A stretch of 64,000 nt of DNA from assembly GCF_026914265.1 (NCBI RefSeq), contig NC_069133.1, positions 2,455,566-2,519,565 on the forward strand, written 5' to 3'. The notes beneath the pieces were generated by a model that made no database searches, was not told where the DNA came from, and worked only from the letters and a program-made list of their open reading frames with translations. Below, in pieces: positions 29,877-59,800 of this stretch; the first letter of the stretch is position 1; the number at the start of each line of letters is the position of its first letter. The DNA comes from Mya arenaria. Its lineage: Eukaryota > Mollusca > Bivalvia > Myida > Myidae. The position numbers were made by a program, and so were the translations under genes.

Positions 29877-32800
29877 CTTTGGAAGAAAAATGAACATTTA
29901 GGCAAAGGCATTATATTTTGTATGCAAAAACAAAGAAAAAGCAAAACCTATTGATGTACATAATGCACCATATCAATGTACATAATGCACCATGTTAATT
30001 CACATAATGCACGATGTCAATGTACATAATGCACCATATCGTTTTACATAATGCACCATGTTAATTCACATAATGCACCATGTCAATGTACATAATGCAC
30101 CATATCGTTTTACATAATGCACCACGTTAATTCACATAATGCACCATATCAATGTACATAATGCACCATATCGTTTTACATAATGCACCATATCAATGTA
30201 CATAATGCACCATATCAATGTACATAATGCACCATATCAATGTACATAATGCACCATATTAATGTACATAATGCACCATATTGATGTACATAATGCACCT
30301 TATCAATGTACATAATGCACCATATCAATGTACATAATGCACCATATCAATGTACATAATGCGCCATGTTAATTCACATAATGCATCATATCAATGTACA
30401 TAATGCACCATATTGATGTGCATAATGTGCCATGTTAATTCACATAATGCATCATATCAATGTACATAATGCACCATATTGATGTGCATAATGCACCATG
30501 TTAATTCACATAATGCACCATGTCAATGTACATAATGCACCATATCGATGTACATAATGCACCATATTGAATTACATAATGCACCATGTTAATTCACATA
30601 ATGCACAATATCGATACACCATATTTATGTACATAATGCACCATATCAATGTACATAATGCACCATTTTGATGTACATAATGCACCATCTTCATTCACGT
30701 AATGCACCATATTTATGTACATAATGCACCATATTTATGTACATAATGCACCATATTTATGTACATAATGCACCATATTTATGTACGTAATGCACCATAT
30801 CAATGTACATAATGCACCATTTTGATGTACATAATGCACCATCTTCATTCACGTAATGCACCATATTTATGTACATAACGCACCATATCGATGTACATTA
30901 TGCACCATGTTAATTCACATAATGCACCATATCGATGCACATAATGCACCATATTTATTCACATAACGCACCATATCGATGTACATTATGCACCATGTTG
31001 ATTCACATAATGCACCATATCGATGCACATAATGCACCATATTTATGTACATAATGCACCATATCAATGTACATAATGCACCATTTTGATGTACATAATG
31101 CACCATCTTCATTCACGTAATGCACCATATTTATGTACATAATGCACCATATCAATGTACATAATGCACCATTTTGATGTACATAATGCACCATCTTCAT
31201 TCACGTAATGCACCATATCAATGTACATAATGCACCATATTAATGTACATAATGCACCATATTGATGTACATAATGCACCTTATCAATGTACATAATGCA
31301 CCATATCAATGTACATAATGCACCATATTAATGTACATAATGCGCCATGTTAATTCACATAATGCATCATATCAATGTACATAATGCACCATATTGATGT
31401 GCATAATGTGCCATGTTAATTCACATAATGCATCATATCAATGTACATAATGCACCATATTGATGTGCATAATGCACCATGTTAATTCACATAATGCACC
31501 ATGTCAATGTACATAATGCACCATATCGATGTACATAATGCACCATATTGAATTACATAATGCACCATGTTAATTCACATAATGCACAATATCGATGCAC
31601 CATATTTATGTACATAATGCACCATATCAATGTACATAATGCACCATTTTGATGTACATAATGCACCATCTTCATTCACGTAATGCACCATATTTATGTA
31701 CATAATGCACCATATTTATGTACATAATGCACCATATTTATGTACATAATGCACCATATTTATGTACGTAATGCACCATATCAATGTACATAATGCACCA
31801 TTTTGATGTACATAATGCACCATCTTCATTCACGTAATGCACCATATTTATGTACATAACGCACCATATCGATGTACATTATGCACCATGTTAATTCACA
31901 TAATGCACCATATCGATGCACATAATGCACCATATTTATTCACATAACGCACCATATCGATGTACATTATGCACCATGCTGATTCACATAATGCACCATA
32001 TAGATGCACATAATGCACCATATTTATGTACATAATGCACCATATCAATGTACATAATGCACCATTTTGATGTACATAATGCACCATCTTCATTCACGTA
32101 ATGCACCATATTTATGTACATAACGCACCATATCGATGTACATAATGCACCATTTTGATGTACATAATGCACCATCTTCATTCACGTAATGCACCATATC
32201 AATGTACATAATGCACCATATTAATGTACATAATGCACCATATTGATGTACATAATGCACCTTATCAATGTACATAATGCACCATATCAATGTACATAAT
32301 GCACCATATCAATGTACATAATGCGCCATGTTAATTCACATAATGCATCATATCAATGTACATAATGCACCATATTGATGTGCATAATGTGCCATGTTAA
32401 TTCACATAATGCATCATATCAATGTACATAATGCACCATATTGATGTGCATAATGCACCATGTTAATTCACATAATGCACCATGTCAATGTACATAATGC
32501 ACCATATCGATGTACATAATGCACCATATTGAATTACATAATGCACCATGTTAATTCACATAATGCACAATATCGATGCACCATATTTATGTACATAATG
32601 CACCATATCAATGTACATAATGCACCATTTTGATGTACATAATGCACCATCTTCATTCACGTAATGCACCATATTTATGTACATAATGCACCATATTTAT
32701 GTACATAATGCACCATATTTATGTACATAATGCACCATATTTATGTACGTAATGCACCATATCAATGTACATAATCCACCATTTTGATGTACATAATGCA

Positions 32801-35800
32801 CCATCTTCATTCACGTAATGCACCATATTTATGTACATAACGCACCATATCGATGTACATTATGCACCATGTTAATTCACATAATGCACCATATCGATGC
32901 ACATAATGCACCATATTTATTCACATAACGCACCATATCGATGTACATTATGCACCATGTTGATTCACATAATGCACCATATCGATGCACATAATGCACC
33001 ATATTTATGTACATAATGCACCATATCAATGTACATAATGCAACATTTTGATGTACATAATGCACCATCTTCATTCACGTAATGCACCATATTTATGTAC
33101 ATAACGCACCATATCGATGTACATTATGCACCATGTTAATTCACATAATGCTTTCTATAAACCATGTTTCACTCTACCTTTCATCTCCTTCTTGTACTTG
33201 TGCAGCAGTTTCTGTTTCTCATTGAAGTCCTTTGTACCTCGACGACCTTTCTTCCGCCCATCAAACCTGAAAGATTCGATGATTAAATGTTCAACAAGGC
33301 AATTAGAATACCAAGTTTGGTGATAACTGGTTGTATGCCAGCCAAATTTGGAGAGTGGACACTGTTAATACAGTTTTTGCCAAATCAAGGGTCATAACTC
33401 TATAGAGTTACTGAGGTCACATGGCTGGTTATCAATCCTCTCAAAGGTATTATGCCCATACACATTTTGACAAAATTTTGTGATGACTGGATAAAGGCTT
33501 CTAAAGTTATTGATCGGACAATACAAACATTAGGTAATTTCTATAAATAAAGGGCTATAACTCTCTTGTATGGCTGGTTATCAAACCGGTCCGAGATATT
33601 AAGCCCATCAAACATACTGGACTATTATTACATCAATAAGGACAGTACTATTTGTTTAATTATTGGCAATTCAAAGCCATAACTCTTGTTTCTATTACAT
33701 CTCTGACTAAGTTTAGCAACAATCATGAATACATTTAGCACCTTGCACTCAAAGAAAGGGACAGTGATTTTTTATATAGATAGTTTATATGTTTATTTTA
33801 TACATGTAGTTAATTGTGTTAAGTGCAAACAGCTTACTTCTCCTCCACCTTAGGTTCAAACATTTTCAGTGGTTTGGGTTTCTTCTTCTGCATGGCAAGG
33901 GGTTGTCTGCTCTTGCTAGAATACTCTTCACACTGGGAGACAAGTAACTCTATTCTGGTCTGCAAAGATAGGAAAACACATTGTCAAAACTGGGAAAATA
34001 TTTTCTTGATCTAACTTCATAACAACACAATTTGTTGTCTTGGGCCAGTGGTCTATATATATATATAACCTATTTAGTTAAAACAAAATTGCACATTAGT
34101 CTGATACAGTAAAATAAGCAATTTCTTTTCCTTTTTTCAACAAGAGTGCCAACTATCACAAAATACATCCACCTTAATTTTAGGACACTAAGTTGGTTGA
34201 TAAGTGATTGTACATTGAGCCAAATTTAGAGAGTGGACACTGTAAATGCAGTTTTTGCCAACTCAAGGGTCACAACTCTAGAGAGATTGAGGCAACATAG
34301 CTGGTTATTGAACCTGAACAAATTCTGACCCCATTTTGTGATGAGTGGACAAAGGCTAAATGTCTTTATCAGACGAGAACAATTTCAGGTTATTTATATA
34401 ACTAAAGGGTGATAACTTTTGAGTGACTAGGGTGATATAGCTGGTTATCGACCTTGTTTGTGATATTATGCCCATACACATCCAAATTTGGTGATGACTG
34501 GACAAGGGCTCCTAAAGTTATTGATCGTACAAGAGCAATTGTGAGGTAATTGAAATAAAACCTTTGCAGTTAAGTATACTCATCCAAATTACTTTTCATA
34601 TAGTGTTGTAATACAAAACATTTCAATAAAATGTGTACAGATGAATTTTATGCCTGCATTAAGAAAGGTTATGAATATAGGAAAAGTAATATGCAAAGCA
34701 CACTGGAACAAAACGTTCAGTTACCCATCAAAATGGAATAATTGATACTATGGGCAAGACACAAGTCATTTGAAAATACCCTGTAAAACTACAGATCTTC
34801 ACAATGGATTGATTTGGCATGATATCTTTATAAGTTGTAAGGAATAAATATCATCCCATAGTTTTAATGGTGTATGACAAGGGGGTTAATAGTTGGCATG
34901 CATTTTTCTGGTAGACACAGAATGAGCCATTCCATTCATTACATATTGACGCCTGACTTATTTAAGATATGAGATAAGTTCAAAGAATGCCTAAGAATTG
35001 AATTTGAATGAGAATAATTGCAAAAGGTGGATATTTTATGCAGGTGTTGCCAAGCAACGGGGGTCAAAGTTTGAAAGCTGTATATATGGATAGTTTTATA
35101 TGGTATTCTTTCGTGATTTAACTGGTCTGAGTTACTGAAATAATGTCCAGAAATGCCTTCTACGTTAAATTTTCAAGTGACACTGGCTTTGTTAAGCCTT
35201 AAAGTTTTAAGTTGTTATCATAGTTTATTGATTATTTCGCATTTCAAATGACCATAAAATCAATTAATCTGACATGACAACAGATTGTAAATTATATGTA
35301 TTGCTAGATATTCATAATACAAGGTAGGTACATATTGAACTCAAAGAAATGTACACAATGGACATTCAGGTTGAAAGAGAATTTCACCCTCTACAATACA
35401 TTTCCAATATATGACAACAAAATTTTGTATTGATATAAAGATGAAAATAAATATCTTAAGATCTTTAGCATTGAAGTTAGTGCATCACAAGGAAAAACAA
35501 GAGGGCCATGATGGCCCTGTATCGCTCACCTGTAGCTTTGCTAAATAAAGTGAACATTCTGACCTATTATCATAAAGATCCAATGAAAAGTATGGCCCCT
35601 AGAGGCCACTCTTTTATTTGTCCCACTGACCTAGTTTTTTACCCCACATGACCCTATCAGTAGGCAATGCTTCAAACCAAATATTTAAGACCTAGTCCTT
35701 GTGGCTTCAGACAAGAAAATTTTAAAGTTTTTTCCTATATAAGCCTATGTAAAACTTGTGACACCCAGGGTGAGGCCTCTTTTCACCACAGGTGCACAAA

Positions 35801-38800
35801 TTGAACAATCTTGGTAGCAGGCCACTAGGTTATGCCACATATAAAATGGCAATGTCTTGTTGGTTTAGACAAGAAGTTTTTTGTTCTATATAAGCCTATG
35901 CAAAACTTGTGACTCCCCCCAGGATAGGGCCTCTTCTCCCCAGGGGCATAAATTGAACAATCTTGGTAGAGGACCACTTGGTTATGATACATACCAAATA
36001 TTGAATGCGTAGGCCTTGCATTTTCAGACAAGAAGATTTTTAAACACTTTCCTTATATAAGCCTATATCGAACTTGACCTACATTTTATAGAGATGATCA
36101 TTCTGACCAAGTTGCATTGAGATTAGGCTAAAATTGTGACCTCTATTGTGTTCACAAGGTTTTTCTACTAATTGACCTAGTGACCTAGTTTTTGACCTGG
36201 GTTGACCCAATATGGAACTTGACCTAGCTTATGTTAAGATGATCATTCTGACCAAGTTTCATTAAGATAAGGGTAAAATTGTGACCTCTATTTTGTTCAC
36301 AAGGTTTTTCTAATAATTGACCTAGTGACCTAGTTATTGACTTTGATGACCCAATATCGAACTTGACCCAGATTTTATAGAGATGATCATTCTGACCAAG
36401 TTGCATTAAGATTAGCCTAAAATTGTGACCTCTATTGTGTTCACAAGGTTTTTGTACTAATTGACCTAGTGACCTAGTTATTGACCGCGGATGACCCAAT
36501 ATCGAACTTGACCTAGATTTTATAGAGATGATCATTCTGACCAAGTTGCATTGAGATTAGGCTAAAATTGTGACCTCTATTGTGTTCACAAGGTTTTTGT
36601 ACTAATTGACCTAGTGACCTAGTTATTGACCGTGAATGACCCAATATCAAACTTGACCTACATTTTACAGCGATGATCATTCTGACCAATTTGCATTGAG
36701 ATTAGGCTAAAATTGTGACCTCTATTGTGTTCACAAGGTTTTTCTACTAATTGACCTAGTGACCTAGTTATTGACCGCGGATGACCCAATATCGAACTTG
36801 ACCTAGATTTTATAGAGATGATCATTCTGACCAAGTTGCATTGAGATTAGGCTAAAATTGTGACCTCTAATGTGTTCACAAGGTATTTCTACTAATTGAC
36901 CTACTGACCTAGTTTTTGACCCCAGATGACCCAATATCGAACTTGACCTAGATTTCATAGAGATGATCAGTCTGACCAAGTTTCATAAAGATTAGGTCAA
37001 AATTGTGACCTCTGTTGTGTTCACAAGGTTTTTCTAATAATTGACCTAGTGACCTAGTTATTGACTGCGGATGACCCAATATCGAACTCGATCTAGATTT
37101 TATAGAGATGATTATTCTGACCAAGTTGCATTGAGATTAGGCTAAAATTGTGACCTCTATTGTGTTCACAAGGTTTTTGTACTAATTGACCTAGTGACCT
37201 AGTTGTTGACCGCGGATGACCCAATATCGAACTTGACCTACATTTTATAGAGATGATCATTCTGACCAAGTTGCATTGAGATTAGGCTAAAATTGTGACC
37301 TCTATTGTGTTCACAAGGTCTTTCTACTAATTGACCTAGTGACCTAATTATTGACCGCGGATGACCCAATATCGAACTTGACCTAGATTTTATAGAGATG
37401 ACCATTCTGACCAAGTTGCATTGAGATTAGGCTAAAATTGTGACCTCTATTGTGTTCACAAGGTTTTTCTACTAATTGACCTAGTGACCTAGTTTTTGAC
37501 CCCAGATGACCCAATATCGAACTTGACCTACATTTTATAGAGATGATCAGTCTGACCAAGTTTCATAAAGATTAGGTCAAAATTGTGACCTCTATTGTGT
37601 TCACAAGCAATTGTGAACGGACGGACGGACGGACGGACGGACGGATGGACGACGGACGAAGAGTGATCACAAAAGCTCACCTTGTCACTACGTGACAGGT
37701 GAGCTAAAAATAGTTCTATCACTTTCTTATTTTAAGTTTCCTTGAACTAGGAAGCAATTACTGACACAATTTGGAAGAAGGAAATAACAGCTGCTGACAG
37801 CACTATAATTACATATGAATCATTAAACAATGAGATTTAGAGCCACATTTATAGTTGGTCATCTAATGATTACCACATGATGTCAATTAGTCGGAAGAAT
37901 TTCCCTTTGGGATTGCTCCATTAGTAGAAATAAATGACAACACTGTTTCAAACACTTCCTTAATGTGAAAAAAGGAAATTAAAGCCTTCTTCCAAGAACA
38001 TTTTCCAGGTAAAATATTTTTTTATTTCCGGACTTCCAAGAAGCTATGTTTAAAAAAATAATAAAATCAAAATCAAAGCTGAACATAATTTCAATGGAAA
38101 AGAAGAGCTTTATTATTTGTGTCAGACGCACTTCTATGTGGATTAGGGACTCCTTGTGACCCCATATCAGTAACATTTGAAAGGGTCTTATGTGAATGAC
38201 AGAATATGTAACGATTACACAATGATGTGTATCAATTGATACCAAAATTACATGGCAGGCATCCAAATTTAACATAATTCCCAATGGCTCAATGTAATGG
38301 CAAGGTTATTTTCAAAATAAGAAACCAAAAGAGCAGTTCATATCATTAAAGCTGCACTCTCACAGATCAATTGTTTTGACAACTTTTTTATGTTTTGTCT
38401 AGGCATGAGCCATTTGTGTATAAATCTCTGGAAACCAGGGATAATTAGCTAAAGCTAAAAGCGTTACTACCGCTTTAAGAAAATGAAATGAATCAAACAA
38501 TTGAGATCAGTTCTATTGTACGTTATCTAATACACTGATGCCAAAATTAGCTGATTCTGAGACCAAAAAGAAGAAGTCAAAACTGTCAAATTGTGAGAGT
38601 GCAACTTTAGTTTTTCCCACCCAAGGGACAGATAAAATCCATCACTTTGCCAATGCAAGATTTTCTTTGCTCTCACTAAAAAATCAACAAGGAATTTGTT
38701 TGCCTTCTAAATCAATAGCTTTACATTCACATAACAAAACTTTATTCATAAATTTAATCAGTTAAGTTCCCTCAATGGCCATCTCATCAATGCACATATT

Positions 38801-41800
38801 CCATGAACGCTTTTTTCATCAATGATTCTGAGTAGTTATAGTATTGATTTCAAAACTCATTCATGACTTTATTGTTTAGTTTAAAGCTGCACTCTCACAG
38901 ATATACCGAAAAACCATTTTTATAGCTTTAAAAATAAAAAAAATTGTCTTGGAAAAAGCAATTTACTGTGTAAATATCTGCAAACCAATCATATAAGATT
39001 GCTGACAAAAAAACAGAACAAAGATTTTCATATTTCCGTTCGAAAATTAATGTTTTCTGGCTTAAACCGTTACTAACAGTTTAAGAACAAGAGCTGTCAC
39101 AGAGACAGCACGCTCGACTATTCCGCCGCTTTTCAGTGTAAGGATTGAAAAGTTTTGGCTAAACATGCATGTATCACTGTTAGATTAGATTTCAATGCAA
39201 TACATGATGTGCGGAGATATTAACATAAATGTGGTAACATGCAAAATTTTAAGCAGAATTTTTAAGTCTAATAATAAAGGGCCATTATTTGCAAAACACA
39301 GTTATCTAACTTGATTATTCAATTAGGTTGGGTGGTTAAATACCATTGTATAAAGTCTTAATGCAATACATCAAGTAGTTGCTGAGATATTATCCTATAT
39401 GTGCTAACATGCAAGACCTTAACCAGAATTTCTAAGTCGCATAATAAAGGGGCAAAAATTATATAATATGAAAGATAGAGTTATCTTACTTGATTACCAG
39501 AAGGTTAAATGGTTGGGAGCCTGTGTGTAAAGTTTCAATGCAATACATGATGTATTTGTGAAGCATTGACTTAAAAGTGGTAACATGCAAAACCTTTATC
39601 AGAATTTCTATGTTGAATAAAAAAGGGGCCATTATTTGAATTTAATGCAAACTAGAGTTATCTAACTTGGTTATTTAAATAGATTGGATGGTTGAGTACC
39701 ATTTTATAAAGTCTCAATGCAATTCATCCAGTAGTTGCTGAGATATTAACCTATGTGTGCTTACATGTAAAACCTTAACCAGAATTTCTGAGTCAAATAT
39801 AAAATTAAATGCAAACTAGATATCTAACTTGGTAAATTAAGTAGGTTGGATGGTTGAGTACCATTGTATCAAGTCTCAATGCAATACCTCAAGCAGTTAC
39901 TGAGATATTAACCTATGTGTGCTTGCACGCAAAACCTTAACCAGAATTTCTAAGTCAAATAATCAAGGCCTATTATTTGCATTAAATGAAAACTAGAGTT
40001 ATCTAACTTGGTTAATTAAGTAGGTTGGATAGTTGAGTACCATTGTATCAAGTCTCAATGCAATACCTCAAGTAGTTGCTGAGATATTAACCTATGTGTG
40101 CTTGCACGCAAAACCTTAACCAGAATTTCTAAGTCAAATAATAAAGGCCTATTATTGGCATTAAATGCAAAGTAGAGTTATCAAACTTGGTTAATTAAGT
40201 AGTTTGGATGGTTGAGTACCATTGTATAAAGTCTCAATGCAATACCTCAAGTAGTTGCTGAGATATTAACCTATGTGTGCTTGCACGCAAAACCTTAACC
40301 AAGGGGTGACGCCGACACAGACACCGACGCCGACGCTTGGGTGAGTAGTATAGCTCTCCTTATTCTTCGAATAGTCGAGCTAAAAATGCATAAAACTTAA
40401 ATATAAAAATATGCGATCTAATTTTTTGTCAGCAGTATTAAATAACTGGGTTCCATGGAATTTCACAAAAATTGGCTTGTTCCAAGACAAAACAAGAGCT
40501 GTCACAGTATGTGACGAATGCCCCCGAATGTGACATTGACCTATGAACAAGGTCAGTACATGAAAAGTTGATCTTGCCTTTACGTGTCAAATACATATGG
40601 CAAGTTATTTTAAATTGCCTCTGAACATAAAAAATACCACCCATACTTGACAACCTACACTGTTATGTCCTTATATTCAGAATTCCCTTGTGAATAAACA
40701 CTTAGTGTATCTTTCACCTTAGAGGTAGGGACATGGGTCTTACACACGACACGTCGTCTTGGTATGTGGAAAACATGTAGCAAGTGATTTTAAAATCTGT
40801 CCATACAAGAGAAAGTTACAGCCCGGACACGACAACCTATACTCTATGTCCTTATGTGCAGCACTCCATTGTGAATAAACACTAAGTGTGACCTTGACCT
40901 TTCAGGCAGGGACACGGGTCTTGCACGCGACACGTCGTCTTGGTATGTGGAACACATTCGGCAAGTTATTTTAAAATCTGTCCATACAAGAGACAGTTAC
41001 AGCCCGGACACGACAACCTATACTCTATGTCCTTATATGCAGCACTCCATTGTGAATAAACACTTAGTGTGACCTTGACCTTTGAGGTAGGGACACGGGT
41101 CTTGCACGCAACACGTCGTCTTGGTATGTGGAACACATGTGGCAAGTTATTTTAAAATCTGTCCATACAAGGGAAAGTTACAGCCCGGACACGACAACCT
41201 ATACTCTATGTCCTTATATGCAGCACTCCATTGTAAATAAACACAAAGTGTGACCTTGACCTTTGAGGTAGGGACGTGGGTCTTGCACGCAACACGTCGT
41301 CTTGGTATGTGGAACACATGTGGCAAGTTATTTTAAAATCTGTCCATACAAGAGAAAGTTACAGCCCGGACACGACAACCTATACTCTATGTCCCTATAT
41401 GCAGCACTCCATTGTGAATAAACACTAAGTGTGACCTTGACCTTTGAGGTAGGGACGTGGGTCTTGCACGTGACACGTCGTCTTGGTATGTGGAACACAT
41501 TCGGCAAGTTATTTTAAAATCTGTCCATACAAGGGAAAGTTACTGCCCGGACACGACAACCTATACTCTATGTCCTTATATGCAGCACTCCATTGTGAAT
41601 AAACACTAAGTGTGACCTTGACCTTTGAGGTAGGGACACGAGTCTTGCACGCGACACGTCGTCTTGGTATGTGGAACACATGTGGCAAGTTATTTGAAAA
41701 TCTGTCCATACAAGGGAAAGTTACAGAGCCGGACAGACGGACGGACAGACAGACGGATGGTGCGATTTTAATATGCCCACCTTGGGGGCATAAAAATAAA

Positions 41801-44800
41801 AAAGTTGTAAAAATGTTCAATCTGTGAGAGTGCATATAAACTGCTTTTGCAAGGAATACTTTCAACTTATTTTGTGACACTCACTTAATATTCAATTCAA
41901 AAAGGTGTCATATTGCTCATCGAAAAGATGACCCCTAACTGTATGAAATGTTACCTGTATAGACTCTGGGTAGTTGTCTGTGGGCAGACATTTACACATG
42001 GAGACCACTGACCCCTAACTGTATGAAATGTTACCTGTATAAACTCTGGGTAGTGTTCTGTGGGCAGACATTTACACATGGAGACCACTGACCCCTAACT
42101 GTATGAAATGTTACCTGTATATACTCTGGGTAGTGTTCTGTGGGCAGACATTTACACATGGAGACCACTGATCCCTAACTGTATGAAATGTTACCTGTAT
42201 AGACTCTGGGTAGTTGTCTGTGGGCATACATTTTCACATGGACACCACTGACCCCTAACTGTATATAATGTTACCTGTATAGACTCTGGGTAGTGTTCTG
42301 TGGGCAGACATTTACACATGGAGACCACTGATCCCTAACTGTATGAAATATTACCTGTATAGACTCTGGGTAGTGTTCTGTGGGCAGACATTTACACATG
42401 GAGATCACTGACCCCTAACTGTATGAAATGTTACCTGTATATACTCTGGGTAGTGTTCTGTGGACAGACATTTACACATGGAGACCACTGATCCCTAACT
42501 ATATGAAATGTTACCTGTATAGACTCTGGGTAGTGTTCTGTGGGCAGACATTTACACATGGAGACCACTGACCCCTAACTGTATGAAATGTTACCTGTAT
42601 AGACTATGGGTAGTGTTCTGTGGGCATACATTTACACATGGAGACCATTGATCCCTAACTGTATGAAATGTTACCTGTATAGACTCTGGGTAGTGTTCTG
42701 TGGGCAGACATTTACACATGGACACCACTGACCCCTAATTGTATGAAATGTTACCTGTATAGACTCTGGGTAGTGTTCTGTGGGCAGACATTAACACATG
42801 GAGACCACCGATCCCTAACTGTATGAAATGTTACCTGTATAGACTCTGGGTAGTGTTCTGTGGGCAGACATTTACACATGGAGACCACTGATCCCTAACT
42901 GTATGAAATGTTACCTGTATAGACTCTGGGTAGTGTTCTGTGGGCATACATTTACATATGGAGACCACTGATCCCTAACTGTATGAAATGTTACCTGTAT
43001 AGACTCTGGGTAGTGTTCTGTGGGCATACATTTACACATGGAGATCACTGACCCCTAACTGTATGAAATGTTACCTGTATAGACTCTGGGTAGTGTTCTG
43101 TGGGCAGACATTTACACATGGAGACCACTGATCCCTAACTGTATGAAATGTTACCTGTATAGACTCTGGGTAGTGTTCTGTGGGCATACATTTACACATG
43201 GACACCACTGACCCCTAACTGTATGAAATGTTACCTGTATATACTCTGGGTAGTGTTCTGTGGGCATACATTTACATATGGAGACCACTGATCCCTAACT
43301 GTATGAAATGTTACCTGTATAGACTCTGGGTAGTGTTCTGTGGGCATACATTTACACATGGAGACCACTGACCCCTAACTGTATGAAATGGTACCTGTAT
43401 AGACTCTGGGTAGTGTTCTGTGGGCAGATATTTACACATGGACACCACTGATCCCTAACTGTATGAAATGTTACCTGTATAGACTCTGGGTAGTGTTCTG
43501 TGGGCAGACATTTACACATGGACACCACTGATCCCTAACTGTATGAAATGTTACCTGTATATACTCTGGTTAGTGTTCTGTGGGCAGACATTTACACATG
43601 GAGATCACTGACACCTAACTGTATGAAATGTTACCTGTATAGACTCTGGGAAGTGTTCTGTGGGCAGACATTTACACATGGACACCACTGACACCTAACT
43701 GTATGAAATGTTACCTGTATATACTCTGGGTAGTGTTCTGTGGGCAGACATTTACACATGGAGACCACTGACCCCTAACTGTATGAAATGTTACCTGTAT
43801 AGACTCTGGGTAGTGTTCTGTGGGCAGACATTTACACATGGACACCACTGACCCCTAACTGTATGAAATGTTACCTGTATAGACTCTGGGTAGTGTTCTG
43901 TGGGCATACATTTACACATGGAGATCACTGACCCCTAACTGTATGAAATGTTACCTGTATAGACTCTGGGTAGTTGTCTGTGGGCATACATTTACACATG
44001 GAGACCACTGACCCCTAACTGTATGAAATGTTACCTGTATAGACTCTGGGTAGTGTTCTGTGGGCAGACATTTACACATGGAGACCACTGATCCCTAACT
44101 GTATGAAATGTTACCTGTATAGACTCTGGGTAGTGTTCTGTGGGCAGACATTTACACATGGAGACCACCGACCCCTAACTGTATGAAATGTTACCTGTAT
44201 AGACTCTGGGTAGTGTTCTGTGGGCAGACATTTACACATGGACACCACTGATCCCTAACTGTATGAAATGTTACCTGTATATACTCTGGTTAGTGTTCTG
44301 TGGGCAGACATTTACACATGGAGATCACTGACACCTAACTGTATGAAATGTTACCTGTATAGACTCTGGGAAGTGTTCTGTGGGCAGACATTTACATATG
44401 GAGACCACTGATCCCTAACTGTATGAAATGTTACCTGTATAGACTCTGGGTAGTGTTCTGTGGGCATACATTTACACATGGAGACCACTGACCCCTAACT
44501 GTATGAAATGGTACCTGTATAGACTCTGGGTAGTGTTCTGTGGGCAGATATTTACACATGGACACCACTGATCCCTAACTGTATGAAATGTTACCTGTAT
44601 AGACTCTGGGTAGTGTTCTGTGGGCAGACATTTACACATGGACACCACTGATCCCTAACTGTATGAAATGTTACCTGTATATACTCTGGTTAGTGTTCTG
44701 TGGGCAGACATTTACACATGGAGATCACTGACACCTAACTGTATGAAATGTTACCTGTATAGACTCTGGGAAGTGTTCTGTGGGCAGACATTTACACATG

Positions 44801-47800
44801 GACACCACTGACACCTAACTGTATGAAATGTTACCTGTATATACTCTGGGTAGTGTTCTGTGGGCAGACATTTACACATGGAGACCACTGACCCCTAACT
44901 GTATGAAATGTTACCTGTATAGACTCTGGGTAGTGTTCTGTGGGCAGACATTTACACATGGACACCACTGACCCCTAACTGTATGAAATGTTACCTGTAT
45001 AGACTCTGGGTAGTGTTCTGTGGGCATACATTTACACATGGAGATCACTGACCCCTAACTGTATGAAATGTTACCTGTATAGACTCTGGGTAGTTGTCTG
45101 TGGGCATACATTTACACATGGAGACCACTGACCCCTAACTGTATGAAATGTTACCTGTATAGACTCTGGGTAGTGTTCTGTGGGCAGACATTTACACATG
45201 GAGACCACTGATCCCTAACTGTATGAAATGTTACCTGTATAGACTCTGGGTAGTGTTCTGTGGGCAGACATTTACACATGGAGACCACCGACCCCTAACT
45301 GTATGAAATGTTACCTGTATAGACTCTGGGTAGTGTTCTGTGGGCAGACATTTACACATGGACACCACTGATCCCTAACTGTATGAAATGTTACCTGTAT
45401 ATACTCTGGTTAGTGGTCTGTGGGCAGACATTTACACATGGAGATCACTGACACCTAACTGTATGAAATGTTACCTGTATAGACTCTGGGAAGTGTTCTG
45501 TGGGCAGACATTTACACATGGACACCACTGACACCTAACTGTATGAAATGTTACCTGTATATACTCTGGGTAGTGTTCTGTGGGCAGACATTTACACATG
45601 GAGACCACTGATCCCTAACTGTATGCAATGTTACCTGTATAGACACTGGGTAGTGTTCTGTGGGCAGACATTTACACATGGAGATCACTGACCCCTAACT
45701 GTATGAAATGTTACCTGTATAGACTCTGGGTAGTGTTCTGTAGGCATAAATTTACACATGGAGATCACTGATCCCTAACTGTATGAAATGTTACCTGTAT
45801 AGACTCTGGGTAGTTGTCTGTGGGCAGACATTTACACATGGAGACCACTGATCCCTAACTGTATGAAATGTTACCTGTATAGACTCTTGGTAGTGTTCTG
45901 TGGGCAGACATTTACACATGGAGACCACTGACCCCTAACTGTATGAAATGTTACCTGTATAGACTCTGGGTAGTGTTCTGTGGGCAGACATTTACACATG
46001 GACACCACTGACCCCTAACTGTATGAAATGTTACCTGTATAGACTCTGGGTAGTGTTCTGTGGGCAGACATTTACACATGGACACCACTGACCCCTAACT
46101 GTATGAAATGTTACCTGTATAGACTCTGGGTAGTGTTCTGTGGGCATACATTCACACATGGAGACCACTGACCCCTAACTGTATGAAATGTTACCTGTAT
46201 AGACTCTGGGTAGTGTTCTGTGGGCAGACATTAACACATGGAGACCACTGACCCCTAACTGTATGAAATGTTACCTGTATATACTCTGGGTAGTGTTCTG
46301 TGGGCAGACATTTACACATGGAGACCACTGACCCCTAACTGTATGAAATGTTACCTGTATAGACTCTGGGTAGTGTTCTGTGGGCATACATTTACACATG
46401 GAGATCACTGATCCCTAACTGTATGAAATGTTACCTGTATAGACTCTGGGTAGTGTTCTGTGGGCAGACATTTACACATGGAGACCACTGACCCCTAACT
46501 GTATGAAATGTTACCTGTATAGACTCTGGGTAGTGTTCTGTGGGCAGACATCAACACATGGAGATCACTGACCCCTAACTGTATGAAATGTTACCTGTAT
46601 AGACTCTGGGTAGTGTTCTGTGGGCAGACATTTACACATGGAGACAACTGACCCTAACTGTATGAAATGTTACCTGTATATACTCTGGGTAGTGTTCTGT
46701 GGGCAGACATTTACACATGGACACCACTGACCCCTAACTGTATGAAATGTTACCTGTATAGACTCTGGGTAGTGTTCTGTGGGCAGACATTTACACATGG
46801 AGATCACTGATCCCTAACTGTATGAAATGTTACCTGTATAGACTCTGGGTAGTGTTCTGTGGGCAGACATTTACACATGGAGACCACTGACCCCTAACTG
46901 TATGAAATGTTACCTGTATAGACTCTGGGTAGTGTTCTGTGGGCAGACATCAACACATGGAGATCACTGATCCCTAACTGTATGAAATGTTACCTGTATA
47001 GACTCTGGGTAGTTGTCTGTGGGCATACATTTACACATGGAGATCACTGACCCCTAACTGTATGAAATGTTACCTGTATATACTCTGGGTAGTGTTCTGT
47101 GGGCAGACATTTACACATGGAGACCACTGACCCCTAACTGTATGAAATGTTACCTGTATAGACTCTGGGTAGTTGTCTGTGGGCAGACATTTACACATGG
47201 AGATCACTGATCCCTAACTGTATGAAATGTTACCTGTATAGACTCTGGGTAGTGTTCTGTGGGCATACATTTACACATGGAGACCACTGACCCCTAACTG
47301 TATGAAATGTTACCTGTATAGACTCTGGGTAGTGTTCTGTGGGCAGACATCAACACATGGAGATCACTGACCCCTAACTGTATGAAATGTTACCTGTATA
47401 GACTCTGGGTAGTGTTCTGTGGGCAGACATTAACACATGGAGACCACTGACCCCTAACTGTATGAAATGTTACCTGTATATACTCTGGGTAGTGTTCTGT
47501 GGGCAGACATTTACACATGGAGACCACTGACCCCTAACTGTATGAAATGTTACCTGTATAGACTCTGGGTAGTGTTCTGTGGGCAGACATTTACACATGG
47601 AGATCACTGATCCCTAACTGTATGAAATGTTACCTGTATAGACTCTGGGTAGTGTTCTGTGGGCAGACATTTACACATGGAGACCACTGACCCCTAACTG
47701 TATGAAATGTTACCTGTATAGACTCTGGGTAGTGTTCTGTGGGCAGACATCAACACATGGAGATCACTGATCCCTAACTGTTTGAAATGTTACCTGTTTA

Positions 47801-50800
47801 GACTCTGGGTAGTTGTCTGTGGGCATACATTTACACATGGAGATCACTGACCCCTAACTGTATGAAATGTTACCTGTATAGACTCTGGGTAGTGTTCTGT
47901 GGGCATTCATTTACACATGGAAATCACTGACCCCTAACTGTATGAAATGTTACCTGTATAGACTCTGGGTAGTTGTCTGTGGGCAGACATTTACACATGG
48001 AGATCACTGACCACTAACTGTATAAAATGTTACCTGTATAGACGCTGGGTAGTTGTCTGTGGGCATACATTTACACATGGAGATCACTGACCACTAACTG
48101 TATAAAATGTTACCTGTATAGGCTCTGGGTAGTGTTCTGTGGGCATACATTTACACATGGAGACAACTGATCCCTAATTGTATGAAATGTTACCTGTATA
48201 GACTCTGGGTAGTGTTCTGTGGGCAGACATTAACACATGGAGACCACTGATCCCTAACTGTATGAAATGTTACCTGTATAGACTCTGGGTAGTGTTCTGT
48301 GGGCATACATTTACACATGGAGACCACTGACCCCTAACTGTATGAAATGTTACCTGTTTAGACTCTGGGTAGTGTTCTGTGGGCATACATTTACACATTG
48401 AGACCACTGATCCCTAACTGTATGAAATGTTACCTGTATAGACTCTGGGTAGTTGTCTGTGGGCATACATTTACACATGGAGACCACTGACCCCTAATTG
48501 TATGAAATGTTACCTGTATAGACTCTGGGTAGTGTTCTGTGGGCAGACATTTACACATGGAGACCACTGATCCCTAACTGTATGAAATGTTACCTGTATA
48601 GACTCTGGGTAGTGTTCTGTGGGCAGACATTTACACATGGAGACCACTGACCCCTAACTGTATGAAATGTTACCTGTATAGACTCTGGGTAGTGTTCTGT
48701 GGGCAGACATTTACACATGGAGACCACTGATCCCTAACTGTATGAAATGTTATCTGTATAGACACTGGGTAGTGTTCTGTGGGCAGACATTTACACATGG
48801 AGACCACTGATCCCTAACTGTATGAAATGTTACCTGTATAGACACTGGGTAGTGTTCTGTGGGCAGACATTTACACATGGAGATCAATGACCCCTAACTG
48901 TATGAAATGTTACCGTATATAGAATCTGGGTAGTGTTCTGTGGGCATACATTTACACATGGAGACCACTGACCCCTAACTGTATGAAATCATACCTGTTT
49001 AGACTCTGGGCAGTTGTCTGTGGGCAGACATTTACACATGGAGATCACTGACCCCTAACTATATGAAATGTTACCTGTATAGACTCTGGGTAGTGTTCTG
49101 TGTGCAGACATTTACACATGGAGACCACTGATCCCTAACTGTATGAAATGTTACCTGTATAGACTCTGGGTAGTGTTCTGTGGGCAGACATTTACACATG
49201 GAGACCACTGACCCCTAACTGTATGAAATGTTACCTGTATAGACTCTGGGTAGTGTTCTGTGGGCAGACATTTACACATGGAGACCAATGATCCCTAACT
49301 GTATGAAATGTTACCTGTATAGACACTGGGTAGTGTTCTGTGGGCAGACATTTACACATGGAGATCACTGACCCCTAACTGTATGAAATGTTACCTGTAT
49401 AGACTCTGGGTAGTGTTCTGTGGGCATACATTTACACATGGAGACCACTGATCCCTAACTGTATGAAATGTTACCTGTTTAGACTCTGGGTAGTTGTCAG
49501 TGGGCAGACATTTACACATGGAGATCACTGACCCCTAACTGTATGAAATGTTACCTGTATAGACTCTGGGTAGTGTTCTGTGGGCATACATTTACACATG
49601 GAGACCACTGACCCCTAACTGTATGAAATGTTACCTGTATAGACTCTGGGTAGTGTTCTGTGGGCATACATTTACACATAGACACCACTGACCCCTAACT
49701 GTATGAAATGTTACCTGTATAGACTCTGGGTAGTGTTCTGTGGGCAGACATTTACACATGGAGACCACTGACCCCTAACTGTATGAAATGTTAATTGTAT
49801 AGACTCTGGGTAGTGTTCTGTGGGCAGACATTAACACATGGAGACCAGTGACCCCTAACTGTATGAAATGTTACCTGTATAGACTCTGGGTAGTGTTCTG
49901 TGGGCAGACATTAACACATGGAGACCACTGACCCCTAACTGTATGAAATGTTACCTGTATAGACTCTGGGTAGTGTTCTGTGGGCAGACATTTACACATG
50001 GACACCACTGATCCCTAACTGTATGAAATGTTACCTGTATAGACTCTGGGTAGTGTTCTGTGTGCAGATATTTACACATGGATACCACTGATCCCTAACT
50101 GTATGAAATGTTACCTGTATAGACTCTGGGTAGTTGTCTGTGGGCAGACATTTACACATGGAGACCACTGACCCCTAACTGTATAACATGTTACCTGTTT
50201 AGACTCTGGGTAGTTGTCTGTGGGCAGACATTTACACATGGAGACCACCGACCCCTAACTGTATGAAATGTTACCTGTATAGACTCTGGGTAGTGTTCTG
50301 TGGGCAGACATTTACACATGGACACCACTGATCCCTAACTGTATGAAATGTTACCTGTTTAGACTCTGGGTAGTGTTCTGTGGGCATACATTTACACATG
50401 GAGACCACTGATCCCTAACTGTATGAAATGTTACCTGTTTAGACTCTGGGTAGTTGTCTGTGGGCAGACATTTACACATGGAGATCACTGACCCCTAACT
50501 GTATGAAATGTTACCTGTATAAACTCTGGGTAGTGTTCTGTGGGCAGACATTTACACATGGACACCACTGATCCCTAACTGTATGAAATGTTACCTGTAT
50601 AGACTCTGGGTAGTGTTCTGTGGGCATACATTTACACATGGAGACCACTGATCCCTAACTTTATGAAATGTTACCTGTATAGACTCTGGGTAGTGTTCTG
50701 TGGGCAGACATTTACACATGGAGATCACTGAAAACTAACTGTATGAAATGTTACCTGTATAGACTCTGGGTAGTTGTCTGTGGGCATACATTTACACATG

Positions 50801-53800
50801 GAGACCACTGATCCCTAACTGTATGAAATGTTACCTGTATAGACTCTGGGTAGTGTTCTGTGGGCAGACATTTACACATGGAGACCACTGATCCCTAATT
50901 GTATGAAATGTTACCTGTATAGACTCTGGGTAGTTGTCTGTGGGCAGACATTTACACATTGAGATCACTGACCACTAACTGTATGAAATGTTACCTGTAT
51001 AGACTCTGGGTAGTTGTCTGTGGGCATACATTTACACATGGACACCACTGACCCCTAACTGTATGAAATGTTACCTGTATAGACTCTGGGTAGTGTTCTG
51101 TGGGCAGACATTTACACATGGAGACCACTGACCCCTAACTGTATGAAATGTTACCTGTATAGTCTCTGGGTAGTGTTCTGGGGGCAGACATTTACACATG
51201 GAGACCACTGATCCCTAACTGTATGAAATGTTACCTGTATAGACTCTGGGTAGTGTTCTGTGGGCATACATTTACACATGGAGACCACTGACCCCTAACT
51301 GTATGAAATGTTACCTGTATAGACTCTGGGTAGTGTTCTGTGGGCATACATTTACACATGGACACCACTGACCCCTAACTGTATGAAATGTTACCTGTAT
51401 ATACTCTGGGTAGTGTTCTGTGGGCAGACATTTACACATGGAGACCACTGACCCCTAACTGTATGAAATGTTACCTGTATAGACTCTGGGTAGTGTTCTG
51501 TGGGCAGACATTTACACATGGAGACCACTGATCCCTAACTGTATGAAATGTTACCTGTATAGACTCTGGGTAGTTGTCTGTGGGCAGACATTTACACATG
51601 GAGACCACTGATCCCTAACTGTATGAAATGTTACCTGTATAGACTCTGGGTAGTTGTCTGTGGACAGACATTTACACATGGAGACCACTGACCCCTAACT
51701 GTATGAAATGTTACCTGTATAGACTCTGGGTAGTGTTCTGTGGGCAGACATTTACACATGGAGACCACTGATCCCTAACTGTATGAAATGTTACCTGTAT
51801 AGACTCTGGGTAGTGTTCTGTGGGCAGACATTTACACATGGAGACCACTGATCCCTAACTGTATGAAATGTTACCTGTATAGACTCTGGGTAGTGTTCTG
51901 TGGGCAGACATTTACACATGGAGACCACCTGATCCCTAACTGTATGAAATGTTACCTGTATAGACTCTGGGTAGTGTTCTGTGGGCAGACATTTACACAT
52001 GGAGACCACTGACCCCTAACTGTATGAAATGTTACCTGTATAGACTCTGGGTAGTGTTCTGTGGGCAGACATTTACACATGGAGATCACTGACCCCTAAC
52101 TGTATGAAATGTTACCTGTATAGACTCTGGGTAGTTGTCTGTGGGCAGACATTTACACATGGAGACCACTGACCCCTAACTGTATGAAATGTTACCTGTA
52201 TAGACTCTGGGTAGTTGTCTGTGGGCAGACATTTACACATGGAGACCACCTGACCCCTAACTGTATGAAATGTTACCTGTATAGACTCTGGGTAGTGTTT
52301 TGTGGGCAGACATTTACACATGGACACCACTGATCCCTAACTGTATGAAATGTTACCTGTTATAGACTCTGGGTAGTGTTCTGTGGGCATACATTTACAC
52401 ATGGAGACCACTGATCCCTAACTGTATGAAATGTTACCTGTATAGACTCTGGGTAGTGTTCTGTGGGCAGACATTTACACATGGAGACCACTGACCCCTA
52501 ACTGTATGAAATGTTACCTGTATTAGACTCTGGGTAGTTGTCTGTGGGCAGACATTTACACATGGAGATCACTGACCCCTAACTGTATGAAATGTTACCT
52601 GTATAGACTCTGGGTAGTGTTCTGTGGGCAGACATTTACACATGGAGCACCACTGATCCCTAACTGTATGAAATGTTACCTGTATAGACTCTGGGTAGTG
52701 TTCTGTGGGCAGACATTTACACATGGAGACCACTGATCCCTAACTGTATGAAATGTTACCTGTATAGACTCTGGGTAGTGTTCTGTGGGCAGACATTTAC
52801 ACATGGAGATCACTGAAACCTAACTGTATGAAATGTTACCTGTATAGACTCTGGGTAGTTGTCTGTGGGCATACATTTACACATGGAGACCACTGATCCC
52901 TAACTGTATGAAATGTTACCTGTATAGACTCTGGGTAGTGTTCTGTGGGCAGACATTTACACATGGAGACCACTTATCCCTAATTGTATGAAATGTTACC
53001 TGTATAGACTCTGGGTAGTTGTCTGTGGGCAGACATTTACACATGGAGATCACTGACCACTAACTGTATGAAATGTTACCTGTATAGACTCTGGGTAGTT
53101 GTCTGTGGGCATACATTTACACATGGACACCACTGACCCCTAACTGTATGAAATGTTACCTGTATAGACTCTGGGTAGTGTTCTGTGGGCATACATTTAC
53201 ACATGGAGACCACTGACCCCTAACTGTATGAAATGTTACCTGTATAGACTCTGGGTAGTGTTCTGTGGGCAGACATTTACACATGGAGACCACTGATCCC
53301 TAACTGTATGAAATGTTACCTGTATAGACTCTGGGTAGTGTTCTGTGGGCATACATTTACACATGGAGACCACTGACCCCTAACTGTATGAAATGTTACC
53401 TGTATAGACTCTGGGTAGTGTTCTGTGGGCATACATTTACACATGGACACCACTGACTCCCTAACTGTATGAAATGTTACCTGTATAGACTCTGGGTAGT
53501 GTTCTGTGGGCATACATTTACACATGGAGATCACTGACCCCTAACTGTATGAAATGTTACCTGTATAGACTCTGGGTAGTGTTCTGTGGGCATACATTTA
53601 CACATGGAGACCACTGATCCCTAACTGTATGAAATGTTACCTGTATAGACTCTGGGTAGTGTTCTGTGGGCAGACATTTACACATGGAGACCACTGACCC
53701 CTAACTGTATGAAATGTTACCTGTATAGACTCTGGGTAGTTGTCTGTGGGCAGACATTTACACATGGAGATCACTGACCCCTAACTGTATGAAATGTTAC

Positions 53801-56800
53801 CTGTATAGACTCTGGGTAGTGTTCTGTGGGCAGACATTTACACATGGAGACCACTGATCCCTAACTGTATGAAATGTTACCTGTATAGACTCTGGGTAGT
53901 GTTCTGTGGGCATACATTTACACATGGAGACCACTGATCCCTAACTGTATGAAATGTTACCTGTATAGACTCTGGGTAGTGTTCTGTGGGCAGACATTTA
54001 CACATGGAGATCACTGAACCTAACTGTATGAAATGTTACCTGTATAGACTCTGGGTAGTTGTCTGTGGGCATACATTTACACATGGAGACCACTGATCCC
54101 TAACTGTATGAAATGTTACCTGTATAGACTCTGGGTAGTGTTCTGTGGGCAGACATTTACACATGGAGACCACTGATCCCTAACTGTATGAAATGTTACC
54201 TGTATAGACTCTGGGTAGTGTTCTGTGGGCAGACATTTACACATGGAGACCACTGACCCCTAACTGTATGAAATGTTACCTGTATAGACTCTGGGTAGTG
54301 TTCTGTGGGCATACATTTACACATGGAGACCACTGACCCCTAACTGTATGAAATGTTACCTGTATAGACTCTGGGTAGTGTTCTGTGGGCAGACATTTAC
54401 ACATGGAGACCACTGACCCCTAACTGTATGAAATGTTACCTGTATAGACTCTGGGTAGTTGTCTGTGGGCAGACATTTACACATGGAGACCACTGATCCC
54501 TAACTGTATGAAATGTTACCTGTATAGACTCTGGGTAGTGTTCTGTGGGCATACATTTACACATGGAGACCACTGACCCCCTAACTGTATGAAATGTTAC
54601 CTGTATAGACTCTGGGTAGTGTTCTGTGGGCATACATTTACACATGGACACCACTGACCCCTAACTGTATGAAATGTTACCTGTATAGACTCTGGGTAGT
54701 GTTCTGTGGGTATACATTTACACATGGAGATCACTGACCCCTAACTGTATGAAATGTTACCTGTATAGACTCTGGGTAGTGTTCTGTGGGCAGACATTTA
54801 CACATGGAGACCACTGATCCCTAACTGTATGAAATGTTACCTGTATAGACTCTGGGTAGTGTTCTGTGGGCAGACATTTACACATGGAGACCACTGATCC
54901 CTAACTGTATGAAATGTTACCTGTATAGACTCTGGGTAGTGTTCTGTGGGTAGACATTTACACATGGAGACCACTGACCCCTAACTGTATGAAATGTTAC
55001 CTGTATAGACTCTGGGTAGTGTTCTGTGGGCAGACATTTACACATGGAGACCACTGATCCCTAACTGTATGAAATGTTACCTGTATAGACTCTGGGTAGT
55101 GTTCTGTGGGCAGACATTTACACATGGAGACCACTGATCCCTAACTGTATGAAATGTTACCTGTATAGACTCTGGGTAGTGTTCTGTGGGCAGACATTTA
55201 CACATGGAGACCACTGACCCCTAACTGTATGAAATGTTACCTGTATAGACTCTGGGTAGTGTTCTGTGGGCATACATTTACACATGGAGACCACTGATCC
55301 CCTAACTGTATGAAATGTTACCTGTATAGACTCTGGGTAGTGTTCTGTGGGCATACATTTACACATGGACACCACTGACCCCTAACTGTATGAAATGTTA
55401 CCTGTATAGACTCTGGGTAGTGTTCTGTGGGCATACATTTACACATGGAGACCACTGACCCCTAACTGTATGAAATGTTACCTGTATAGACTCTGGGTAG
55501 TGTTCTGTGGGCAGACATTTACACATGGAGACCACTGATCCCTAACTGTATGAAATGTTACCTGTATAGACTCTGGGTAGTGTTCTGTGGGCAGACATTT
55601 ACACATGGAGATCACTGATCCCCTAACTGTATGAAATGTTACCTGTATAGACTCTGGGTAGTGTTCTGTGGGCAGACATTTACACATGGAGACCACTGAC
55701 CCCTAACTGTATGAAATGTTACCTGTATAGACTCTGGGTAGTGTTCTGTGGGCATACATTTACACATGGAGACCACTGATCCCTAACTGTATGAAATGTT
55801 ACCTGTATAGACTCTGGGTAGTGTTCTGTGGGCAGACATTTACACATGGAGACCACTGACCCCTAACTGTATGAAATGTTACCTGTATAGACTCTGGGTA
55901 GTGTTCTGTGGGCAGACATTTACACATGGAGACCACTGACCCCTAACTGTATGAAATGTTACCTGTATAGACTCTGGGTAGTTGTCTGTGGGCATACATT
56001 TACACATGGAGACCACTGACCCCTAACTGTATGAAATGTTACCTGTATAGACTACTGGGTAGTGTTCTGTGGGCAGACATTTACACATGGAGACCACTGA
56101 CCCCTAACTGTATGAAATGTTACCTGTATAGACACTGGGTAGTGTTCTGTGGGCATACATTTACACATGGAGACCACTGATCCCTAACTGTATGAAATGT
56201 TACCTGTATAGACTCTGGGTAGTGTTCTGTGGGTAGACATTTACACATGAAGACCACTGATCCCTAACTGTATGAAATGTTACCTGTATAGACACTGGGT
56301 AGTGTTCTGTGGGCATACATTTACACATGGAGACCACTGACCCCTAACTGTATGAAATGTTACCTGTATAGACTCTGGGTAGTGTTCTGTGGGTAGACAT
56401 TTACACATGGAGACCACTGACCCCTAACTGTATGAAATGTTACCTGTATAGACTCTGGGTAGTGTTCTGTGGGCATACATTTACACATGGAGACCACTGA
56501 CCCCTAACTGTATGAAATGTTACCTGTATATACTCTGGGTAGTGTTCTGTGGGCATACATTTACACATGGAGACCACTGACCCCTAACTGTATGAAATGT
56601 TACCTGTATAGACTCTGGGTAGTGTTCTGTGGGCATACATTTACACATGGAGACCACTGACCCCTAACTGTATGAAATGTTACCTGTATAGACTCTGGGT
56701 AGTGTTCTGTGGGTAGACATTTACACATGGAGACCACTGATCCCTAACTGTATGAAATGTTACCTGTATAGACTCTGGGTAATGTTCTGTGGGCATACAT

Positions 56801-59800
56801 TTACACATGGAGACCACTGACCCCTAACTGTATGAAATGTTACCTGTATAGACTCTGGGTAGTGTTCTGTAGGCATACATTTACACATGGAGACCACTGA
56901 TCCCTAACTGTATGAAATGTTACCTGTATAGACTCTGGGTAGTGTTCTGTGGGCAGACATTTACACATGGATCACTGATCCCTATCTGTATGAAATGTTA
57001 CCTGTATAGACTCTGGGAAGTGTTCTGTGGGCAGACATTTACACATGGAGACCACTGACCCCTAACTGTATGAAATGTTACCTGTATAGACTCTGGGAAG
57101 TGTTCTGTGGGCAGACATTTACACATGGAGACCACTGACCCCTAACTGTATGAAATGTTACCTGTATAGACTCTGGGTAGTGTTCTGTGGGCAGACATTT
57201 ACACATGGAGATCACTGATCCCTAACTGTATGAAATGTTACCTGTATAGACACTGGGTAGTGTTCTTTGGGTAGACATTTACACATGGAGACCACTGACC
57301 CCTAACTGTATGAAATGTTACCTGTATAGACTCTGGGTAGTGTTCTGTGGGCATACATTTACACATGGAAACCACTGATCCCTAACTGTATGAAATGTTA
57401 CCTGTATAGACTCTGGGTAGTGTTCTGTGGGCATACATTTACACATGGAGACCACTGATCCCTAACTGTATGAAATGTTACCTGTATAGACTCTGGGTAG
57501 TGTTCTGTGGGCAGACATTTACACATGGAGACCACTGATCCCTAACTGTATGAAATGTTACCTGTATAGACTCTGGGTAGTGTTCTGTGGGCAGACATTT
57601 ACACATGGAGATCACTGATCCCTAACTGTATGAAATGTTACCTGTATATACTCTGGGTAGTGTTCTGTGGGCATACATTTACACATGGAGACCACTGATC
57701 CCTAACTGTATGAAATGTTACCTGTATAGACACTGGGTAGTGTTCTGTGGGCATACATTTACACATGGAGACCACTGATCCCTAACTGTATGAAATGTTA
57801 CCTGTATATACTCTGGGTAGTGTTCTGTGGGCATACATTTACACATGGAGATCACTGATCCCTAACTGTATGAAATGTTACCTGTATAGACACTGGGTAG
57901 TGTTCTGTGGGTAGACATTTACACATGGAGACCACTGATCCCTAACTGTATGAAATGTTACCTGTATAGACACTGGGTAGTGTTCTGTGGGCATACATTT
58001 ACACATGGAGACCACTGATCCCTAACTGTATGAAATGTTACCTGTATAGACTCTGGGTAGTGTTCTGTGGGCAGACATTTACACATGGAGACCACTGACC
58101 CCTAACTGTATGAAATGTTACCTGTATATACTCTGGGTAGTGTTCTGTGGGCATACATTTACACATGGAGATCACTGATCCCTAACTGTATGAAATGTTA
58201 CCTGTATAGACACTGGGTAGTGTTCTGTGGGTAGACAATTACACATGGAGACCACTGATCCCTAACTGTATGAAATGTTACCTGTATAGACACTGGGTAG
58301 TGTTCTGTGGGCATACATTTACACATGGAGACCACTGACCCCTAACTGTATGAAATGTTACCTGTATATACTCTGGGTAGTGTTCTGTGGGCATACATTT
58401 ACACATGGAGATCACTGATCCCTAACTGTATGAAATGTTACCTGTATAGACACTGGGTAGTGTTCTGTGGGTAGACATTTACACATGGAGACCACTGATC
58501 CCTAACTGTATGAAATGTTACCTGTATAGACTCTGGGTAGTGTTCTGTGGGCAGACATTTACACATGGAGACCACTGACCCCTAACTGTATGAAATGTTA
58601 CCTGTATATACTCTGGGTAGTGTTCTGTGGGCATACATTTACACATGGAGACCACTGATCCCTAACTGTATGAAATGTTACCTGTATATACTCTGGGTAG
58701 TGTTCTGTGGGCATACATTTACACATGGAGACCACTGACCCCTAACTGTATGAAATGTTACCTGTATAGACACTGGGTAGTGTTCTGTGGGTAGACATTT
58801 TCACATGGAGACCACTGACCCCTAACTGTATGAAATGTAACCTGTATAGACTCTGGGTAGTGTTCTGTGGGTAGACATTTACACATGAAGACCACTGATC
58901 CCTAACTGTATGAAATGTTACCTGTATAGACTCTGGGTAGTGTTCTGTGGGCAGACATTTACACATGGAGACCACTGATCCCTAACTGTATGAAATGTTA
59001 CCTGTATAGACTCTGGGTAGTGTTCTGTGGGTAGACATTTACACATGGAGACCATTGACCCCTAACTGTATGAAATGTTACCTGTATAGACTCTGGGTAG
59101 TGTTCTGTGGGCAGACATTTACACATGGAGACCACTGATCCCTAACTGTATGAAATGTTACCTGTATAGACTCTGGGTAGTGTTCTGTGGGCAGACATTT
59201 ACACATGGAGACCACTGATCCCTAACTGTATGAAATGTTACCTGTATAGACACTGGGTAGTGTTCTGTGGGCATACATTTACACATGGAGACCACTGATC
59301 CCTAACTGTATGAAATGTTACCTGTATAGACTCTGGGTAGTTGTCTGTGGGCATACATTTACACATGGAGATCACTGGCTCGAAAATCTCCCGGAATGTC
59401 ATCAAATCTTTGTACATCTTGGAAAACTCAAGCAACAGCCCCAATGTTGTGTTAATAGCTGTTAATCTGCAAAAAAATACATATTTTTTCCCCATGTCTT
59501 TAAATGTAGATTCGGAAACAAAAAAACCCATATCACATTAAATTAGCAGCCACAGTTTGATCGAAACTGTGTATGGACAGTAGCAGAAAATGGAACACTT
59601 TCACTGCCCCCTAGCAATGGCTCTATCAATTTCAAAACGTTCACAAACTAACAAGCTAAACATAATTTTAAAATTGCTTATATAATGTATATACACCCCC
59701 TGTTAAAGCTGTAAACCATAGAACTGCAGAGTGAAAACTTGGCTTGTCTGTTATTTTACAGTGGGAGAAATGGCATATTGTAACAATAAAGCTAGAGTTA

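Follow-up and report, generated by a model that had tools for sequence, protein, structure and literature searches.

An 80-bp unit of NOP14 exon end and splice donor, repeated 218 times from the exon into the next intron in the clam Mya arenaria

Tandem repeats that cross an exon–intron boundary are known from human genes. The name of the 31-bp CBS VNTR, c.1444_1467+7(16_21), denotes a unit in which 24 exonic nt are followed by 7 intronic nt, present in 16–21 copies (PMC2630376). A second CBS variant, c.844_845ins68, is described in the same source as a 68-bp duplication of the intron 7/exon 8 junction in which splicing uses the distal one of the two copies, and gene conversion with the exon has been proposed for it (PMC2630376). 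The variable internal tandem repeats reported from human duplicated genes include minisatellites that lie across exon–intron boundaries and can change splicing (PMC2812944), and in intron gain by tandem duplication the duplicated segment is likewise described as containing a splice junction (PMC4974935). Repeat-rich introns on a far larger scale are found in the Drosophila Y genes, whose gigantic, satellite-filled introns are reported to burden expression (PMC6508621, PMC12965833).

The array considered here, in a NOP14 intron of Mya arenaria, resembles the CBS VNTR in that an exon end and an intron start are repeated in tandem across the boundary and in that its units carry single-substitution variants, but with 218 units of 80 bp, against 16–21 of 31 bp, it has about ten times the copies (PMC2630376). 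Like c.844_845ins68, it indicates that splicing tolerates duplication of a junction; that variant, however, adds one copy, involves an exon start and uses the distal copy, whereas in the clam the first donor appears to be used (PMC2630376). The human variable internal tandem repeats share the boundary-crossing arrangement but average four units of 30 bp and belong to recent paralogues (PMC2812944). As regards intron gain, no new intron is evident in the clam, where an existing one appears to have been lengthened and the deposited protein model shows the ordinary junction only. The clam intron is repeat-rich in the manner of the Drosophila Y introns, and copying of an intron's own exon and donor is not mentioned in the available portions of the two Drosophila accounts (PMC6508621, PMC12965833). 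No bivalve array of the exon-end/donor type was described in the titles and abstract openings listed by literature searches, which is a weak negative. The first-pass annotation of this DNA had called the array unusual, which holds for its scale and for its position in an essential gene, but the CBS 31-bp VNTR has the same design and makes it less unprecedented than was implied. The CBS VNTR reportedly shifts splicing with its copy number. The kind is already known; as far as the literature searched shows, the clam array is new in its scale, in lying in an essential gene and in possibly exchanging sequence with a coding exon.

The C-terminal exons of NOP14 occupy positions 29695–63365, on the minus strand, of the window, by which we mean the whole 64-kb stretch of DNA analysed, and the remaining part of the gene is outside it. 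Joined together, the exons in the window encode 317 residues with a Pfam Nop14 match of 1.2e-90, which bears out the earlier naming of NOP14 as the host gene. A 184-residue exon join matches Nop14 chains of human and yeast. The best database match is Mya arenaria NOP14-like isoform X2 (99% identity over the full query length), and 315/317 residues are identical in an alignment with the deposited Mya arenaria NOP14, which points to the soft-shell clam or a very near relative. Taken alone, the peptide of the exon that borders the array gave a Pfam Nop14 E-value of 0.00019, falling short of Pfam's own cut-off, and no Nop14 match among solved structures. On protein similarity the identification as NOP14 is firm. 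Coordinates of the exons, the intron and the parts of the array are given in Table 1.

Table 1. Features of the NOP14 locus and its 80-bp array (columns: feature, window positions, strand, remarks; a slash marks a splice junction).
NOP14 coding exon, 145 nt	59322..59466	-	last 54 nt are array unit 1; acceptor GCAG/ATTAACAGC, donor TATACAG/GTAACA
Next NOP14 coding exon (TRIELLVSQC...)	33838..33959	-	continues in frame to the NOP14 stop
Intron, 25,362 nt	33960..59321	-	21,032 nt (83%) within TRF arrays
Array, 218 units, unit 1 being the exon's own end	41930..59375	-	TRF and segmentation from the exon
54-nt exon end, common to every unit	59322..59375	-	59375, within the exon, is the first base of unit 1
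Exon's own donor CAG/GTAACA	59316..59324	-	exon end at 59322; deposited junction ESIQ-TRIEL consistent
Unit 155, equal to the exon unit across all 80 bp	46968..47047	-	sequence comparison
Last unit (218)	41930..42008	-	exon part of the type that would encode deposited V, L, DN
Units 2-42, without exon-like CA at unit positions 33-34	56017..59295	-	0/41 versus 31/176 other units
Block duplication, units 176-187 identical to units 190-201	43289..45368	-	12 consecutive identical units, lag 14

Tandem Repeats Finder (TRF) reported a single array at 41929–59377 with a period of 80, 218.0 copies and 95% matches. Segmentation of the minus strand, starting from the exon, also gave 218 units, with lengths of 80 bp (203 units), 81 bp (11), 79 bp (3) and 78 bp (1), in agreement with the ~218 copies first estimated. 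In genomic order each unit consists of the 54 nt that close the exon, with the donor CAG/GTAACA at the junction, and the 26 nt that open the intron. The make-up proposed by the first-pass annotation stands, its lengths of ~55 and ~24 nt being slightly off. As in a CBS-type boundary VNTR, exon end, donor and intron start follow one another in order and the array is contiguous with a functional exon; the claim that it adjoins the real exon is confirmed by unit 1, which begins inside that exon. A count of CAGGTAACA in the window gave 210 minus-strand occurrences, always inside 41801–59500, and none on the opposite strand, which is far beyond chance.

The order of exon, donor and intron bases in the unit is exactly that of the real junction, which supports an origin in situ. 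The exon-derived part of the unit corresponds to conserved protein (Y in 33/34 and P in 34/34 homologues, the best 34 of 120), and this upholds the view that the array was derived from the exon and not the reverse. The opposite history, in which a dispersed satellite landed beside the exon and the likeness to the exon is secondary, is very unlikely. Such a satellite would be in keeping with the presence of three other TRF arrays in the same intron, but the unit contains 54 nt of conserved coding sequence that passes without a break into donor and intron, and CAGGTAACA is absent from the rest of the window on both strands.

Arrays of this length are difficult to assemble, and the published reference is described as built from PacBio reads with short linked-read polishing (PMC10663159); the 14-unit block repeat could itself be a false expansion. 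Against an assembly artefact, whether of the array or of its length, stand the mean difference of 4.5% between units, the distinct variants found in distinct parts of the array and a window without N, and we consider this explanation quite unlikely. If the assembly is right, the 12 identical units at lag 14 show that a block of the array was duplicated recently.

The explanation that we favour, and hold to be probable, is that the array arose by tandem duplication in situ, grew by unequal exchange and has been tolerated through choice of the first donor across a normal 145-nt exon. A duplication inside clam NOP14 would have copied the end of the coding exon, the donor and the first bases of the intron. 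The exon sequence before unit 1 closes with CCA and a unit closes with TCA, which leaves CA as all that the two breakpoints have in common. Unequal exchange and block duplication would then have brought the copies to 218, block duplication being visible in the array and unequal exchange being the mechanism that we infer, and the exon's own end would have remained the outermost unit. Over the 218 units, changes per site amount to 1.4 in the exon-derived part and 1.8 in the intron-derived part (ten sites with a major allele ≤0.95 left out). The copies thus show no clear sign of coding constraint.

The exact donor CAG/GTAACA is present in 210/218 units and CAG/GT at the donor in 215/218, to which an extra G at two unit boundaries (units 89 and 93) adds two further sites, making 217 CAG/GT sites in all. 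The donor nine-mer ranks 2/72 for conservation among stretches of the unit, and the computed U1 pairing of the array donor (−8.5 kcal/mol) is the strongest of seven NOP14 donors (others −2.8 to −6.5 kcal/mol). The decoy donors, intact and highly conserved, are therefore not weak copies, and nothing has disarmed them. When splicing is computed from the first donor, the reading frame stays open through to the NOP14 stop, while each of the other 216 CAG/GT sites would, if used, lead to an early stop (215 within unit 2 and 1 just past the junction with the next exon). By this computation, use of any later donor would ruin the NOP14 protein.

In the deposited Mya arenaria NOP14, which is a gene model, ESIQ is joined straight to TRIEL and array residues are absent. 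A peptide search with an 824-residue read-through query, covering proteins of ~0.55 to 1.75 times the query length, returned normal NOP14 only, any isoforms merged in its 90% cluster of three being hidden. The deposited protein and the peptide search, both based on gene models, point to use of the first donor. The suggestion of first-donor use in the first-pass annotation is therefore consistent with the deposited junction, as far as a gene model can speak for it. Its suggestion of poison transcripts fares less evenly, with early stops predicted from all 216 later sites if used but normal protein as the sole product of the read-through search. Titration of U1 snRNP, also raised there, was rejected as implausible: a vertebrate cell contains about 1 million U1 particles, against ~215 sites on each of a few nascent NOP14 transcripts.

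The same donors could be read as a functional splicing rheostat, in which partial use of the decoys would give poison transcripts that tune NOP14, or in which the U1 sites would shield the long intron from premature polyadenylation. The number of exact donors and the strength of their U1 pairing would suit such a role, as would the lack of AATAAA/ATTAAA in the array (0, against ten in the whole intron). However, homogenisation alone accounts for the high identity of all the sites, the missing poly(A) signals merely reflect a unit that has none, and a poison isoform was not found in the protein search; a rheostat is in our judgement unlikely.

In the reading of in-situ growth and first-donor choice, the array would be harmless as part of the intron because exon definition, over a normal 145 nt from the real upstream acceptor, picks out the first donor. 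Later donors would require either a longer exon (225 nt with donor 2, 305 nt with donor 3) or a poor acceptor of their own. Pyrimidines make up 44–56% of the tracts at seven AG sites in the unit, compared with 62–88% at eight real NOP14 acceptors, but the narrowest gap between the two sets is 9 versus 10 of 16 bases and one real NOP14 acceptor has no long pyrimidine run. With so small a gap, a shortage of acceptor partners for the decoys is a weak argument alone.

The same tracts bear on recursive splicing, in which CAG/GT in each unit would serve as acceptor and donor at once and the long intron would be removed stepwise, leaving the mRNA unchanged. AG/GT does lie at the junction of every intact unit, and a normal protein would be the product, but the tract before CAG has 9/16 pyrimidines with a longest run of 3 and so, by a crude measure, lacks the good pyrimidine tract of a recursive site. 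We regard stepwise removal as highly improbable.

In minigenes with two identical donors, exon definition is reported to result in exclusive use of the upstream donor, which favours first-donor choice in the clam; the same paper recounts the opposite preference for intron-defined splicing, under which the last donor would be favoured (PMC9225289). That preference, the use of the distal copy in CBS c.844_845ins68 and the intact decoy donors count against first-donor choice. Exon-side and intron-side proximity rules accordingly make opposite predictions at this locus, the first donor or the last. The clam gene offers a natural experiment on splice-site choice, with more than 200 near-identical donors after one exon and protein from the first only, and its RNA could test the proximity rules far beyond two-donor minigenes (PMC9225289).

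RNA folding was also considered. The exon unit (59296–59375) has a predicted hairpin that spans the unit, pairs the donor and has its base at the duplication breakpoints, and a two-unit fold gave one hairpin per unit with its base at the unit boundary (z −1.41; 17/200 shuffles as stable). Among 80 rotations the best for the hairpin is 1 nt off the breakpoint phase. The exon-unit fold is modestly better than shuffles (z −2.3; 17/1000), the consensus-unit fold is no better (z −0.7; 232/1000), and the variability of the paired sites is no lower than expectation (circular-shift rank 36/80). Given the results for the consensus unit and the paired sites, the hairpin was set aside as an explanation and is retained as a lead only.

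Comparison with the deposited protein suggested that the coding exon itself may take part in the array. Where that protein has V and L, the window exon encodes I and M, its only two differences, both within the 18 codons common to the array (P = 0.003 for two random differences among 317 residues both falling in those codons, in a post hoc test). Each difference matches an array variant: at unit position 4 (I/V), A is found in 45/218 and G in 172/218 units, and at unit position 22 (M/L), A in 73/218 and C in 145/218, unit 1 included. At the site of the window M, the 34 homologues (the best 34 of 120, including the deposited clam protein) have L in 30 cases and I in 4, and in seven units the exon part would encode the residues of the deposited protein. 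Together with the identity between unit 155 and the exon unit, the two residue differences form the pattern expected of exchange between exon and array, although this is only suggestive, in a comparison of two sequences of which one is known as protein only. The short-read polishing of the published reference could have mixed exon and array bases, which counts against exchange. Nor is the exon any closer to its neighbours than to the array in general (mean mismatches 4.9 for units 2–20 versus 4.7 overall). Both known exon alleles keep DN at positions 33–34, and selection on the exon, or chance homogenisation of one domain, would explain why units 2–42 are without CA while the exon keeps DN.

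A comparable duplication may have occurred in a pearl oyster. From residue 734, the Pinctada imbricata NOP14 model (P0029) contains three head-to-tail copies, of ~30 residues each, of the same exon end. Copies 1 and 2 end YPSQLQ-VSV, and since QVS is the in-frame reading of CAG/GTAAGT, the model has the look of an exon end that was triplicated along with its donor, independently of the clam. Among 189 NOP14 proteins, it is the sole strong repeat (20/20 residues) outside acidic, low-complexity stretches. Other Pinctada-named matches were absent among the best 120 of 873 in a search seeded with P0029. The triplication is known from the protein model alone, in which a gene-model error is possible, and is suggestive and no more.

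These observations allow a bolder reading, which we advance tentatively and think less probable than not: the coding exon may be a live member of the minisatellite, its last 18 codons swapping variants with 217 non-coding copies, and the NOP14 junction, which would have been duplicated independently in the pearl oyster, may be a recurrent birthplace of arrays. If exchange between exon and array is real, a housekeeping protein would be written in part by the concerted evolution of intron DNA, with selection keeping key sites, and the locus would show a minisatellite route to altering a conserved protein.

The window contains further repeats. Three more tandem arrays were reported by TRF in the same NOP14 intron, at 36065–37607 (145 bp), 39293–40301 (179/341 bp) and 40649–41735 (181 bp), the last within a stretch ending GGGGGCATAAAAA that we take to resemble a molluscan mobile element. 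A 22-bp array at 29949–33151 takes up the greater part of the last NOP14 intron, which is bounded by the exon end at 33178 and the exon start at 29876; considered as a second exon-derived case, it was rejected because it begins ~26 nt into the intron and does not include exon. Four ORFs elsewhere in the window gave no Pfam match at E 0.01. On the minus strand, a 60-bp repeat at 20768–21008 (4 copies, 98%) is open in frame within ORF 20754–21035, and several open frames accompany an array with a 31-bp basic unit that extends over more than 2.5 kb at 13598–16128.
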